Shown here piece after piece: positions 5,283-42,500 of a stretch of 64,000 nucleotides of DNA (positions are counted from its first letter, which is position 1; each line of letters begins with the position of its first letter). This stretch comes from Desulfosoma sp. GTDB lineage: Bacteria; Desulfobacterota; Syntrophobacteria; Syntrophobacterales; DSM-9756. Both the position numbers and the translations under genes were made by a program. The DNA lies in contig JBBFKY010000001.1 in NCBI GenBank assembly GCA_037481875.1, positions 530,706-594,705 of the forward strand. The letters run 5' to 3'. Under the pieces are notes generated by a model that had not been told where the DNA came from, did no database searches, and saw only the letters and a list, made by a program, of their open reading frames with translations.

Positions 5283-5780
5283 AGCCCTTGGGCTGAATTC
5301 GTGGACGATGCGGGCCACCAGAATCTTGCAGGTCGCCGATTCTCCCAAAAGGAGCCTCGACACCTTGCTCGGAGTCACCTTCTGAATGAGGCTCTGAAGG
5401 TTCAACATGGGCGGGCTCGGACCGATCATGAAAAAATCGTTGTCTTTTTCCGAGACCTCTAGGCGAAGGTCCAGATTTTCTCGGTGGAGGTCGTTTTCCT
5501 TTGCGGGCACTTGCATATTAACGTCAAAACCTGGGCGATGATGGCCGAAACGATGCTGAAAAAGCGGATATCCTCTTGAAAAGTCACCCCATGCCAGAAA
5601 AGGCGATCCAAACTGAGAACTCCCGAGGTACGCCCATGCAGAATCACCGGCACGCCGACAAAAGCGATCTGATCCTTTTGGATGGATCGGGATCCGGTTT
5701 TGTTCAGGAAAGAGGGGTTCGAGGCTGATGTTCGGGATCACAAAAGGCAAAATATCGAGAGAAAAACTCTTGCGGCACAA
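5283..5780 (-). pseudogene. Remnant of a NifA-type sigma-54 activator (GAF plus start of AAA+)
   Basis: Two frames must be joined to read a NifA-like protein. One begins around 5780 with the end of a GAF domain (IPNISLEPLF). After a one-base shift near 5698 it continues in a second frame (LNKTG, then KDQIAFVGVPVILHGRTSG, then SLDRLFW). It shifts back near 5522 into the linker and the start of an AAA+ domain (FFMIGPSPPM, LIQKVTPSK). The Walker A box reads GESATCKI where GESGTGKE is expected, so three key positions are changed. Similarity ends just after SPRA; the rest of the AAA+ domain and the helix-turn-helix are missing. Two frameshifts, a dead P-loop and truncation make this a clear relic. 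It lies directly upstream of the GAF-hdr operon on the same strand and may be its lost activator. Confidence 0.8.
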
Positions 5781-15448: not shown

Positions 15449-15601
15449 ATGTGGCGTGTCGACCGTTGCGCCTATGCAGGGATTTACCGGTCAGTGGTGA
15501 CCTGGGTCATTGAGGCGGACACACGGGTTCGAGCCCAAGGTTCACGGTGCGTAGAGATTTGTGTTACAGTGCACCACCGAGTTTCCATGTTGCCGAACTG
15601 A
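15449..15601 (+). CDS. Possible 50-aa leader ORF upstream of the TusA-like gene
   Basis: A 50-codon frame from ATG 15449, with AAAGGA 8 bp upstream, ends in TGA 12 bp before the TusA-like start. The product (MWRVDRCAYAGIYRS at its start) has no recognisable domain. It may be a small protein or chance; listed because spacing to the next gene fits translational coupling. Confidence 0.25.
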   Translation: MWRVDRCAYAGIYRSVVTWVIEADTRVRAQGSRCVEICVTVHHRVSMLPN

Positions 15602-15613
15602 AGGGAAAACCCC

Positions 15614-15907
15614 ATGGATAAGACCAAACAAGAAATGGGCCGACCATGGAACCATGAAGTTGTGGCCGACTACCGAAACGACTGTTGAGCCGGGTTTTTG
15701 GACGTAAGTTTACGTCTGAGATTCGTGCGGCCCGGACAAAGCTTTCGATTCCTCATCACCGCAGAGCAGAGGTCAAAAATGGAGCGAGTTATCGCTCACA
15801 ACGGAGGCAAGATCCTGCAGTCTCTGGAAACGATTGACGGTGTCGAAATGACCGTCACCACAGGTCTTGCCCCTGAACCCCGTCCATCGGTAGAGAGTCA
15901 ACCTTAA
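15614..15907 (+). CDS. TusA-like selenoprotein (vicinal Cys-Sec, in-frame UGA)
   Basis: 97 residues when UGA at 15686-15688 is read as Sec25. The N-terminus runs MDKTKQEMGRPWNHEVV then ADYRNDC, then UGA, then AGFLDVSLRLRFVRPGQSFR, FLITAEQRSKMERVIAHNGG and KILQSLE. The frame is the usual TusA-type sulfur carrier: a D-x-x-x-D-C segment, a helix, a PG turn, a strand, then a helix ending in xGG or GH. Relatives I recall have DCGSGLL at this place, so Sec replaces the residue just after the catalytic Cys, giving a CU pair. A palindromic hairpin GACGTA-AGTT-TACGTC (15701-15716) begins 12 nt after UGA with GU in its apex, as expected for SECIS. Start has AAGGG 8 bp upstream. The remainder would otherwise be called only from TTG 15698. 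Confidence 0.75.
15701..15716 (+). promoter_or_regulatory. Candidate bacterial SECIS hairpin of the TusA-like gene
   Basis: Perfect palindrome of 16 nt forming a 6-7 bp stem with GU at the tip. The tip is 19-20 nt after the UGA codon, close to the geometry of E. coli fdhF. Such a palindrome could alternatively be a protein-binding operator, but it sits inside a gene at the exact SECIS distance. Confidence 0.65.
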
Positions 15908-15970
15908 GAAAATTTTCGCTTGACAAGGATGGCTTTCTAGCGCTAGCAGAAAGCTACAATTCGTTCAAGC

Positions 15971-16129
15971 GATCAGGTGCTTGCTGCTTAATAGGGAATC
16001 CCGTGAAAATCGGGAGCGGTCCCGCCGCTGTGAACGGGGACGGAGCCTGCGGAAAGCCACTGGCGACGGAGAGTCGTCGGGAAGGTGCAGGTAACCGGTG
16101 GATCCGTGAGCCAGAAGACCTGCCTGATC
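15971..16129 (+). ncRNA. Cobalamin (B12) riboswitch aptamer
   Basis: Conserved elements occur in the right order: closing stem GATCAGG (15971-15977) with CCTGATC (16123-16129), AATAGGGAA, GTGAAAATC, GGTCCCGCCGCTGTGAACGG (roughly 16015-16040), the B12-box region AAAGCCACTGG, GGGAAGGTGCAGG and GAGCCAGAAGACCTGCC. It lies 220 bp upstream of a small ORF and cbiK, which it should switch off when cobalamin is plentiful. Confidence 0.95.
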
Positions 16130-16196
16130 CTGAGGAAACGCGGCACGGGTGGATGCCGAAACGTTTCCGTGTGAGGACCAAGTGAAACTGGGTGCA

Positions 16197-16350: not shown

Positions 16351-16599
16351 ATGAAAAGAGGCCTGATTGTCTATGTGACCGGAGGCGGAGAACTTTACGA
16401 AGACAGCTGGGGATCCTATGCGTGCATGGATCGGTTCGGCGCCGATGTGGTGGCTGTTGCACACACGGAGTTTGACATCGCTGAAAACTGGTGGCGCATG
16501 GTCACTCGCGGTATGCAGGAAATTCTCTGTGTCCGAGCGCAGGTGGACAGCGAACTTGGCATGTCCATTATCGGGGATCCGCTTCGTATCTGCGGCTGA
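16351..16599 (+). CDS. Unknown 82-aa protein under B12-riboswitch control
   Basis: Starts at ATG 16351 with GGAGGAG 5 bp upstream. The product begins MKRGLIVYVTGGGELYEDSW and contains ACMDRFGADVVAVAHTEFDI and ends IIGDPLRICG. I do not recognise a family; the opening beta-strand plus Gly-rich turn looks like half of an alpha/beta fold. Because it lies between a cobalamin riboswitch and cbiK it is probably linked to cobalt, corrinoid or tetrapyrrole handling. The stop is a UGA followed by A-rich sequence with no hairpin at SECIS distance, so it was taken as a real stop. Confidence 0.75.
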   Translation: MKRGLIVYVTGGGELYEDSWGSYACMDRFGADVVAVAHTEFDIAENWWRMVTRGMQEILCVRAQVDSELGMSIIGDPLRICG

Positions 16600-16648: not shown

Positions 16649-17566
16649 ATGATGACACGGTTCCTGGGAAATGCATTTTCTTTTCTGGGCATGCTGGTTG
16701 TGCTGTCGGTGGTTTTGGGAAGCGTGGGGGCGGGGACGGCTATGGGAAAACAGAAATCCGGACAAGAAGTGAAACCTGTCATCCTTGTGGTGGCTTTTGG
16801 AACAAGTGTGCCGGAAGCTCAAAAAGCCTATGACGCCATCGACCAGCAGATCGCAAAAGCTTTTCCATCCATGGAAAAGCGCTGGGCCTACACCTCCAGC
16901 ATTATTCGAAAAAAACTTCGATCTCAGGGAACATTCATTGATTCTCCGGAAACGGCCTTAGCCAAACTCATGGAGGACGGCTACACGCACGTCGCCGTCA
17001 TGTCCCTGCATGTGATTCCGGGAGCTGAATTTCATGATCTTTACATGAACGCCCGCCTGTTCACGCAAATGGCGGGCGGCTTTAAGAAGGTCACTTTCGC
17101 TCGCCCCTTGCTTTCATCAGCCGAGGACATGCTTGAAACGGTACGGGCGATGGCTGAAAGTGTGCCTTCCGAACGTCGGCCTGAAGAACCAGTGATTTTC
17201 ATGGGGCATGGAAGTGAACATCATCCCGCGGACACGGTCTATGTGGCCATGGAGGCCTATTTTAGAAAACACGATAAAAACATGTTCCTTGCCACCGTCG
17301 ACGGCTCTCCCACCTTTGACGAGGTTCTGGCTGGCTTGCAAAACCGTGGCGTGAAGAAAGCCTATCTTGTTCCCTTTATGGTCGTGGCCGGCGATCATGC
17401 TCGCAACGACATGGCAGGGGATGATCCCGACAGTTGGAAATCTCAACTGGCGGCCAAAGGCATCAAGGCCGTTCCCGTTTTTCGCGGCATGGGAGAAATT
17501 CCGGCAGTGGTCAATATTTGGATTCGTCACCTGCGCTCTGCCGTGGACGCTTTGGGAATACCGTAA
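16649..17566 (+). CDS. cbiK: Periplasmic sirohydrochlorin cobaltochelatase CbiK
   Basis: 305 aa class II chelatase that inserts Co2+ into sirohydrochlorin for anaerobic B12 synthesis. The first ~33 residues are a signal peptide, so this is the periplasmic CbiK form known from Desulfovibrio, which can also bind haem. Mature motifs include VILVVAFGTSVPEAQKAYD, the active-site His segments MSLHVIPGAEFHD and MGHGSEHHPAD, and VPFMVVAGDHARNDMAGDD. Start ATG 16649 follows GGGAGGA by 7 bp. It is the second gene behind the B12 riboswitch. Its 3' end overlaps the convergent QueG-like gene by 40 bp. Confidence 0.93.
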   Translation: MMTRFLGNAFSFLGMLVVLSVVLGSVGAGTAMGKQKSGQEVKPVILVVAFGTSVPEAQKAYDAIDQQIAKAFPSMEKRWAYTSSIIRKKLRSQGTFIDSPETALAKLMEDGYTHVAVMSLHVIPGAEFHDLYMNARLFTQMAGGFKKVTFARPLLSSAEDMLETVRAMAESVPSERRPEEPVIFMGHGSEHHPADTVYVAMEAYFRKHDKNMFLATVDGSPTFDEVLAGLQNRGVKKAYLVPFMVVAGDHARNDMAGDDPDSWKSQLAAKGIKAVPVFRGMGEIPAVVNIWIRHLRSAVDALGIP

Positions 17567-34427: not shown

Positions 34428-34526
34428 TGGCGGAAGTGCATGGGAATCGAACCCACCTGGGACGCCCCTCAGCGCCCCACACCGGATTTGAAGTCCGGGA
34501 GCCCCACCAGTGAGCTTGGCACTTCC
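34428..34526 (-). tRNA. selC: Selenocysteine tRNA (tRNA-Sec, anticodon TCA)
   Basis: 99-nt tRNA with encoded CCA. It has the hallmarks of bacterial tRNA-Sec: 8-bp acceptor stem (GGAAGTGC with GCACTTCC), discriminator G, anticodon loop CTTCAAA giving TCA that reads UGA, a very long variable arm (GGGGCGCTGAGGGGCGTCCC region), and T-arm GGTGGGTTCGATTCCCA. It shows the organism decodes UGA as selenocysteine. Transcribed toward the 3' end of the PanE-like gene. Confidence 0.96.
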
Positions 34527-39540: not shown

Positions 39541-42500
39541 AAGCCGGAATGAATCTCCCCCAAGTCTCACTGAAGTGGATCCTCTTGGGCGTTTTGGCCG
39601 CCATAGCTTTTGGGGCCGGTTTCCTATGGTTCTATCTCACTCATGAAAATGCCCATGAAAAAGAGACGGCGCATTTCCTGGAGACCATCGCCCAGTTCAA
39701 AGCCGAAGAGCTTGCGAATTGGGTTCAGGACCAAAAAGATGATGCATCGGCTTTGCAGCATTCAACCCTCTTCAGGGACTATTTGACGCGCTTTTTGGCG
39801 GACGCGGAAGCCCCTATTACGGAATCCCTGGAGGATCTCCTGCGATACGTGGCCACCAGCCATGTTGCGGACGATGTGCTTGTCTTGGATCGAGAGGGTC
39901 GAGTTCGGTTTGCTTTGAGCGGTGCCCAGAAGGTTCATTCGGATGACGCTGCCGCTCTTGAAGAAGCGCTCAAAACAGGTCGTCCCGTCATGACTGATCT
40001 GCATGTCGATCTGGATACCGATGAAGCCTTTCTTACAGTGGCCGTGCCGGTCTATGGCTGGGGAACCACACCCGTGGAAGCTTTAGGAGGAGTTCTTCTG
40101 GTGACCAAAGCTTTGCGGTTTATCAACCCCATAACACAGGCATGGCCTGTTCCCAGTTCCACGGGAGAAGTGCTGCTGGTGAGGCGTGAAGGAAACGAAG
40201 TGGTGTTTCTGAATGCTTTGCGCCATAAACCCGATGCGGCCTTTCGTCTTCGCCTGTCCTTGGACCGAGTGGATCTCCCGGCGGCCATGGCGGCTCGAGG
40301 CCAAACAGGTGTGGTTCAAGGGATCGACTATCGCGGTGTTCCCGTGACGGCGGCCATCATGCCTGTGAAAGGAACTCCCTGGTTTCTGGTGGCCAAAATG
40401 GATCGCCAGGAAATAGAGGCTCCTTTGCGTAAGATGTCTCTATCGATTGTGGGGCATTTTATAGGGTTCACTGCCTTTCTCATCGTCCTGGTTTTCGGGG
40501 CGCGTCAAAGCGCCGAAAAGGCCTACTATGAACGCTTGTATCGTGCTGAATCCGACCTAAGAAAATCCATGGCTCGTCAAGCGGCCGTGCTCGATGCCAT
40601 GAGCGATGCGGTCATCGCTACGGACCCTGAAGGCCGTGTGGAAGTGTGGAATCCGGAGGCGGAAAAGCTGTCGGGTTTTTCAGCTCATGAGGTTATGGGG
40701 AAAACATTGTCCCAGATTCTTGCGATTCAGGATGCTGCAAAGAAACCGGTGCCCGAAGGCCTTTTAGGACTGGCGAGGAAAGAATTTGATGGGAGCGCCG
40801 CTCCTTCTTTTTATCTCGTGCATCGGTCGGGTCGAACGATTCCCGTCTCGGTGAGTGTCTCTCCCCTGGAAAGTCAATCCGGCGAACCGAAGGCTTTTAT
40901 CTTTTGCTTGAGGGATGAGAGCCGTGAAAGGCTATCGAGACGGATCATGGAGATTCGATTGGATTTGATGGAACGATCCGAAACCGAAGGCGTTGACCGT
41001 ATTTTACCCAAGATTCTTCAGGATGTGGCGGATCTTATGGAAAGTGCCGTAGGTTTCTATGTGTCCTTGGTTGGCGATACCGACGAAGTTCAATGCGTCT
41101 ATTGGTCCGAAAAAATGCCGGAAAATTTTTGTGGAAAGAATTGCACGGACGGTCATCGCCATTTGGAACACGCCGGAATGTGGGCTGAACCAGCTCGATC
41201 GCATAAGCCTTTGATCATAAACGACAGCAGAACCTTGGGAGTTGGGCGAGGTATGCCCGAGGGCCACGGACCGGTGGAGCGTCTTCTCGTGGTGCCCGTT
41301 ATCCAGGACGGCAAGCCCCGCGCCTTATTAGCCCTGGCTAATAAAAGTTCCGAATATACTCAGTTGGATGCGGAAACCCTCGAGACGCTGGCCAGCTTCA
41401 TCCATCAGGTGGTGGAACACCGCAAAGCCGAAGAAAAACTCAGACAAAGTGAAGCCCGCTACAAGAGCCTTTTTCAAGATCACAAGGCCGTGAAACTCCT
41501 GATAGACCCACAGAACGGACACATCGTGGACGCCAATCGAGCAGCGGTGGATTTTTACGGCTGGTCCCAAGAAGAATTGACGCGTATGTTCATTCAACAG
41601 ATCAACACGTTGCCTCCAGAAGCCGTCAAAGAACGCATGAAAGAAGTGAAGGAAGGACGGCGGGGCTATTTTGAGTTCCAGCACCGTCTTGCCGATGGAT
41701 CCGTAAGAGACGTGGAAGTGTACAGCAGCCGCATTGATGTGGACGGAAAACCGTACCTCCATTCCATCATTCACGATGTGACCGGAAGGAAAAGAATGGA
41801 AGCCGAGCGGGCTCGGTGGCTGACTGCTATCGAGCAGGCCGGTGAAGTGATGCTCATCACCGATGCCGACGGTTTCATTCAGTACGTGAACCCGGCTTTT
41901 GAGGCTGTTACGGGATACACTCGGGAGGAAGCGGTTGGCCAAAAGCCCGCCATCTTAAAGAGCGGGCTTCAAGATGAGGCGTTTTATCGCGATATGTGGG
42001 CTACCTTGAAGGCCGGAAAGAAATGGTCAGGCCGCTTGGTCAACAAGAAAAAAGACGGAACCTTGTATACGGAAGAGACTACCATCACGCCGGTTAAGGA
42101 TGCCGAAGGCAATGTCGTTAATTATGTGGCCGTCATGCGGGATATTACGGAAAAGCTTCAGTTGGAACAGCAGTTTTACCAGGCTCAGAAACTGGAATCT
42201 GTGGGACGCCTGGCGGGAGGAGTGGCCCACGACTACAACAACAGCCTCACCATTATTTTGGGATTTGCGGATCTCGCTTTGAGAGAACTTCCCAAGGAAA
42301 GCTTGGCTGCCGACTACATTCGTGAAATCACTCGAGCGGCGGAACGATCCGTGTCCATCACACGTCAATTGCTGGCTTTTGCCCGCAAACAAATCATCGA
42401 GCCCATCGTGATGGATTTGAATGTTTCGGTGGAGGGAACCCTAAAAATGCTAAGGCGCCTCATCGGGGAAGACATCAATTTGGTATGGAAGCCAGGGTCC

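Follow-up and report, generated by a model that had tools for sequence, protein, structure and literature searches.

A gene that encodes a one-domain selenoprotein with a predicted TusA fold lies in the 64-kb window, the whole stretch of DNA that was analyzed (Table 1). In this protein, selenocysteine (Sec25) takes the place of the sulfur-accepting cysteine at the predicted start of helix 1, an invariant cysteine (Cys24) directly precedes it, and the CPxP motif is absent. The protein belongs to a family of about 100 distinct sequences, here called the CU family, essentially all of which come from sulfate-reducing bacteria and their relatives. We regard it as close to certain that the protein is a selenoprotein and has the TusA fold. 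The CU family appears to be a novel selenoprotein family and also a new form of the TusA fold, rather than standard TusA.

Table 1. Features of the selenoprotein gene and of its surroundings in the window
Feature	Position	Strand	Basis and remarks
CDS, TusA-fold selenoprotein with Cys24-Sec25	15614..15907	+	Readthrough translation and homologues; 97 residues through the UGA, then TAA stop
Probable Shine-Dalgarno sequence, AAGGG	15601..15605	+	Read in the sequence; 8 nt 5' of the ATG
TGT codon, Cys24	15683..15685	+	No exception among 99 distinct members; aligns immediately N-terminal to the TusA catalytic Cys
TGA codon, Sec25	15686..15688	+	Invariant; on the TusA catalytic Cys in the alignment
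SECIS hairpin, 7 bp, GU tip	15701..15716	+	Covariation; starts 12 nt after the UGA
Cobalamin riboswitch	15958..16141	+	RF00174, 115.2 bits; downstream context, not part of the selenoprotein
CbiK-like sirohydrochlorin cobaltochelatase	16649..17566	+	NF047852, 212.9 bits, below the cut-off of 400; context only
selC (tRNA-Sec)	34432..34526	-	Rfam RF01852, 74.5 bits, gathering threshold 47

RESULTS

An in-frame UGA is conserved throughout the family

The reading frame of the gene is interrupted solely by a single TGA, and the readthrough product contains the stretch ADYRNDCUAGFLDVSLRLRF. An ATG 72 nt 5' of the TGA is also present in three other genomes (G001, G002, and G015). A sequence-only reading of this DNA had proposed a selenoprotein here, and its coordinates, frame, TGA, D-C-U-A-G-F-L motif, and hairpin were all found to be correct when the sequence was read again. 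The gene would be truncated or overlooked by an annotation pipeline that ends the frame at the UGA or begins it downstream.

Homologues were found by protein search in 22 of 196 genomes, and each match contained exactly one internal stop, always TGA and always at the same place. When 395 genomes of the phylum were searched with a profile, all matches with E values below 1e-10 carried one TGA at this same site. The few matches that lacked the TGA had E values of 7e-6 or worse, and those in two genomes (G245 and G327) translate as ordinary CP-type TusA proteins. In one class of the phylum, which lacks strong members, the matches were likewise all weak and were TusA proteins of the same ordinary CP type. 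When all GTDB contigs were scanned from the protein sequence, nothing was found, which we attribute to the use of back-translated patterns that have TGY where the gene has TGA. Alignment of 99 distinct sequences defined the family motif D-[YS]-R-x-D-C-U, with both C and U invariant; members that came from the DNA-pattern scan described below had been selected partly on this motif, while those from the protein and profile searches had not.

In many families, sequence conservation extends both upstream and downstream of the UGA. Homologues continue past the UGA rather than ending there, and the upstream DYRxDC is conserved as well. In most close pairs, synonymous changes 3' of the TGA exceed or roughly match nonsynonymous ones (for example, 21 versus 12). 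No sense codon was found at the UGA site in any family member identified; of the two forms, CU and CC, that the sequence-only reading had suggested looking for, CU was found across the 99 distinct sequences compared and CC was not. The profile has C in the column that Sec occupies, so any Cys version should have scored no worse than the Sec versions. A Cys version was also not seen at the LysR_Se genes of three relatives in family f54 that lack the CU gene. The failure to find a Cys version argues that selenium chemistry is essential, and this TusA-fold family seems to need Sec and not merely to tolerate it.

The hairpin downstream of the UGA covaries

The putative SECIS element has perfectly paired arms, GACGTAA (15701-15707) and TTACGTC (15710-15716), with GT at the tip. 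Taken alone, this hairpin is only mild evidence, because 6 of the 2,083 TGA trinucleotides in the window are followed, at a similar distance, by a perfect 7-bp hairpin. Across 38 distinct sequences, compensatory changes were found in all seven stem pairs and 98.5% of cells were paired, whereas sliding the stem partner by 1 to 3 columns as a control left only 33 to 56% paired. The proposal that this hairpin is a SECIS element is thereby borne out. Together, the conserved UGA, the coding conservation that flanks it, and the covarying SECIS element support the identification of the gene as encoding a selenoprotein. Elsewhere in the window, TGA codons with strong hairpins in open frames also occur at 41362 (-) and 47015 (+).

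Selenocysteine machinery in carrier genomes

In addition to the selC gene in the window, selB was present in all nine carrier genomes tested, including the window's own. A selB gene above the cut-off was absent from G245 and G327, neither of which has a CU family member. In two carriers with both the CU gene and selB, the best tRNA-Sec match was weak (G253, E value of 3e-9; G387, E value of 7e-9), which we read as a selC gene that is divergent or unassembled. Most selC-bearing relatives lack the CU gene. The genome of the window contains two SelB-like genes, both above the selB cut-off (G000:C2:106378-108279 and G000:C2:316899-318791), and a second genome, G153, likewise contains two.

A predicted TusA fold with Sec aligned to the catalytic Cys

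A structure predicted from 39 family members had a mean pLDDT of 84 and the order b-a-b-a-b-b. Its matches in the PDB included YeeD (Z score of 10.1), TusA (9.3 to 9.4), and a SirA-like protein (9.2). The top seven matches were all small TusA-type proteins or domains (YeeD, TusA, SirA-like, and HP1264; Z scores of 8.4 to 10.1), and the first non-TusA protein came next at 7.5. Comparison by hhalign gave a probability of 95.3% (E value of 2.2e-8) against one subset of TusA domains from relatives and 66.8% (E value of 5e-5) against a broader TusA set. The predicted model, the structural matches, and hhalign thus support the TusA fold that had been proposed. At the sequence level, the Pfam TusA model did not match the window protein and matched 5 of the 39 members weakly (best E value, 1.3e-4), and a PDB sequence search gave chance-level matches only. 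Matches to BRCT and other Pfam models were weak, short, and inconsistent between members and were rejected.

In both hhalign comparisons, Sec25 aligned with the CP-motif Cys that is catalytic in TusA, and Cys24 fell one residue earlier. In the predicted model, Sec25 lies at the start of a helix spanning residues 24 to 37. The sequence-only reading had placed Sec next to the catalytic Cys; the vicinal Cys-Sec pair stands, but the register does not, since Sec itself aligns with the catalytic Cys and the additional conserved Cys is at position -1. The D-C-G-S-G-L-L motif ascribed to TusA-type relatives was not found among 27 aligned TusA domains of the order, which instead show D-x-[RK]-G-x-x-C-P or a close variant. 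In all 99 members, the residue after U is K, A, R, S, W, L, or T; because it is never Pro, the CPxP signature is lost.

Distribution

A scan of 84,980 species with a DNA pattern that covers both D..R..DCU and the SECIS element identified 78 loci, of which about one is estimated to be a chance match. Because the pattern recovers 29 of 39 known members, this count is a lower bound. The record titles of these loci are deltaproteobacterial, except for a few metagenome-assembled genomes labeled only Proteobacteria or Bacterium, and the family is essentially confined to deltaproteobacterial (Desulfobacterota-type) genomes. Named carriers include Desulfacinum hydrothermale, Desulforhabdus sp., Desulfoferrobacter suflitae, "Candidatus Electrothrix" (cable bacteria), and "Candidatus Desulfobulbus rimicarensis." The dsrA gene was present in 30 of 30 carriers and in 22 of 30 noncarriers, both sets having been picked by hand and compared without regard to kinship.

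Some Desulfobulbus-type genomes have two copies of the CU gene (L131/L169, L138/L181, and L164/L177), one of a DYRKDCUWG type and one of a DYRGDCUKGYKDVRLRLK type. At one further locus (L199, near 5373-5422 on the minus strand), the CU motif and hairpin are kept and the downstream frame is unlike the family, suggesting a decayed copy or a sequencing error.

Gene neighborhood

The gene context of the CU family varies by clade. In the window's own family, a cobalamin riboswitch and a CbiK-like gene are downstream of the CU gene; the riboswitch also adjoins the CU gene at L056-L059 and L061. Between the riboswitch and the CbiK-like gene is an open reading frame for an 82-residue protein (16351-16599, plus strand) that was conserved in 5 of 6 relatives checked and had no NCBIfam match. 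A terminal Sec in this protein (..RICG-TGA) was considered and rejected; the TGA occurs in 5 of 6 aligned copies, and G001 has a TAA/TAG stop. In family f82, the CU gene lies between an agmatinase-like gene and dus.

In families f54 and f39, the CU gene is directly 3' of a LysR gene whose product passes the LysR_Sec_metab model (NF040786; 269 to 274 bits versus a cut-off of 250 in the four genomes tested), and LysR homologues were found upstream of the CU gene in 21 of the 78 loci. In f54 and f39, the CU gene is probably under the control of a selenium-responsive LysR regulator. Genome-wide, no association with LysR_Se was seen (26 of 30 carriers versus 24 of 30 noncarriers, hand-picked and with kinship ignored). 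Since LysR_Se is about equally common in genomes without the CU gene, the link is local only. The selenium cluster of the window's own genome is on another contig (L126; G000:C8:42000-61900), away from the CU gene, and contains LysR_Se, a YedE-like gene, TusA, a DUF3343-like gene, SelD, a zinc-type ABC transporter, and a YedF-like gene; these names were assigned by eye, except for LysR_Se and the TusA domains.

DISCUSSION

In TusA, the Cys that corresponds to Sec25 relays sulfur in persulfide form. The explanation that we favor, to which we would give an even chance when taken as a whole, is that the CU protein is a chalcogen carrier or reductase in sulfur and selenium handling. A chalcogen, either sulfane sulfur or selenium in reduced form, would pass from a donor to Sec25, or Sec25 would attack a persulfide or selenotrisulfide. 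Cys24 could then resolve the adduct through a Cys-Sec selenenylsulfide, which a thioredoxin-type reductant would reopen. Because the Pro that follows the TusA Cys is missing, the classical sulfur relay may have been lost. The presence of Sec on a sulfur-carrier scaffold in sulfide-bathed organisms poses a testable question: whether the cell handles selenium or sulfane sulfur with Sec in a role that Cys could not fill.

There are two serious rivals, namely, a carrier that supplies SelD with selenium and a metal ligand; the sequence-only reading had likewise suggested a selenium or metal ligand, or a sulfur carrier of altered reactivity, as possible roles. According to the first rival, Sec25 and Cys24 bind selenide or zero-valent selenium and hand it to selenophosphate synthetase, and the gene is switched by a selenium-responsive LysR. 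The position of the CU gene behind LysR_Sec_metab in f54 and f39 fits such a dedicated carrier, as do published comparative genomics that tie TusA-domain proteins such as YedF to SelD (PMC5322559, PMC2432076) and the description of the in vivo selenium donor of SelD as unresolved (PMC13188914). However, the CU gene of the window's genome is outside the selenium cluster, the majority of relatives with selC manage without the CU gene, and a requirement for Sec to deliver selenium for Sec would be circular, although that is possible because SelD is often itself a selenoprotein. On balance, we consider a dedicated selenium carrier unlikely. The broader proposal that a Sec-Cys TusA scaffold, LysR_Se controlled in some lineages, delivers selenium to SelD and is the missing selenium-donor step in these sulfate reducers is speculative and, in our judgment, rather improbable; if true, it would mean that a selenium-donor protein can pick out selenium where sulfide is in great excess. 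The CU pair might instead bind mercury, arsenic, or copper, making the protein a small chaperone or detoxifier. Other prokaryotic CU motifs do occur in organometal-related selenoproteins (SaoL, SaoC, HgcA, and MbdU; PMC13188914), but no metal resistance gene was seen recurring beside the CU gene in the loci examined, and the Sec position is that of the chalcogen-transfer residue, so we hold this reading to be quite unlikely.

It could also be supposed that no selenoprotein is made, the UGA being a true stop or the gene a decaying TusA. The lack of a Pfam TusA match for the window protein alone and the few comparable hairpins that arise by chance in a window of this size would be in keeping with that view. 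Yet the protein conservation before and after the UGA in many families, the invariant UGA itself, and the covariation of the hairpin refute it in practice, and we give it almost no credence.

The CU family apparently adds an unlisted selenoprotein family, one with no Cys counterpart found. No model in NCBIfam of June 2026 matches it, and the table of 119 selenoprotein families in a 2026 review (PMC13188914) has no TusA/SirA entry or fitting family. A phrase-based literature search found no paper on it. SirA-like and YedF proteins have been linked to selenium metabolism, and their SirA domain carries a CPxP motif; no mention of a Sec-containing form was found in these papers (PMC2432076, PMC5322559).

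With the TusA/SirA-like sulfur carriers (PF01206; Escherichia coli TusA, 3lvj/1dcj; DSY4693, 3hz7), the CU family shares the b-a-b-a-b-b fold and a D-x-R-G stretch leading into the reactive residue with which helix 1 begins; it differs from them in having Sec for Cys, an extra invariant Cys at -1, and no CPxP. The best fold match, YeeD (TsuB; 8k1r), is a TusA-like protein that works with the thiosulfate importer YeeE. YeeD has Cys where the CU family has Sec, and no YeeE-type transporter gene was noticed near the CU gene in the loci examined. YedF (TIGR03527), which joins TusA to DsrE and is linked to SelD, has in common with the CU family a TusA domain and a connection to selenium metabolism. 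In contrast, the CU protein is a single domain of 97 residues without a DsrE part, and the window's genome encodes a YedF-like protein in addition to it (L126:14478-15080). The sequence-only reading had held that a vicinal CU pair in a TusA fold was not a textbook arrangement. The pair itself is known, since CU motifs are described in SaoL, SaoC, HgcA, KCU-star, MbdU, and the Csac_0668-type 2Fe-2S protein (PMC13188914); its occurrence in a TusA fold is new. These proteins share the adjacent Cys and Sec with the CU family and are distinct from it by the domain identifiers given in that review.
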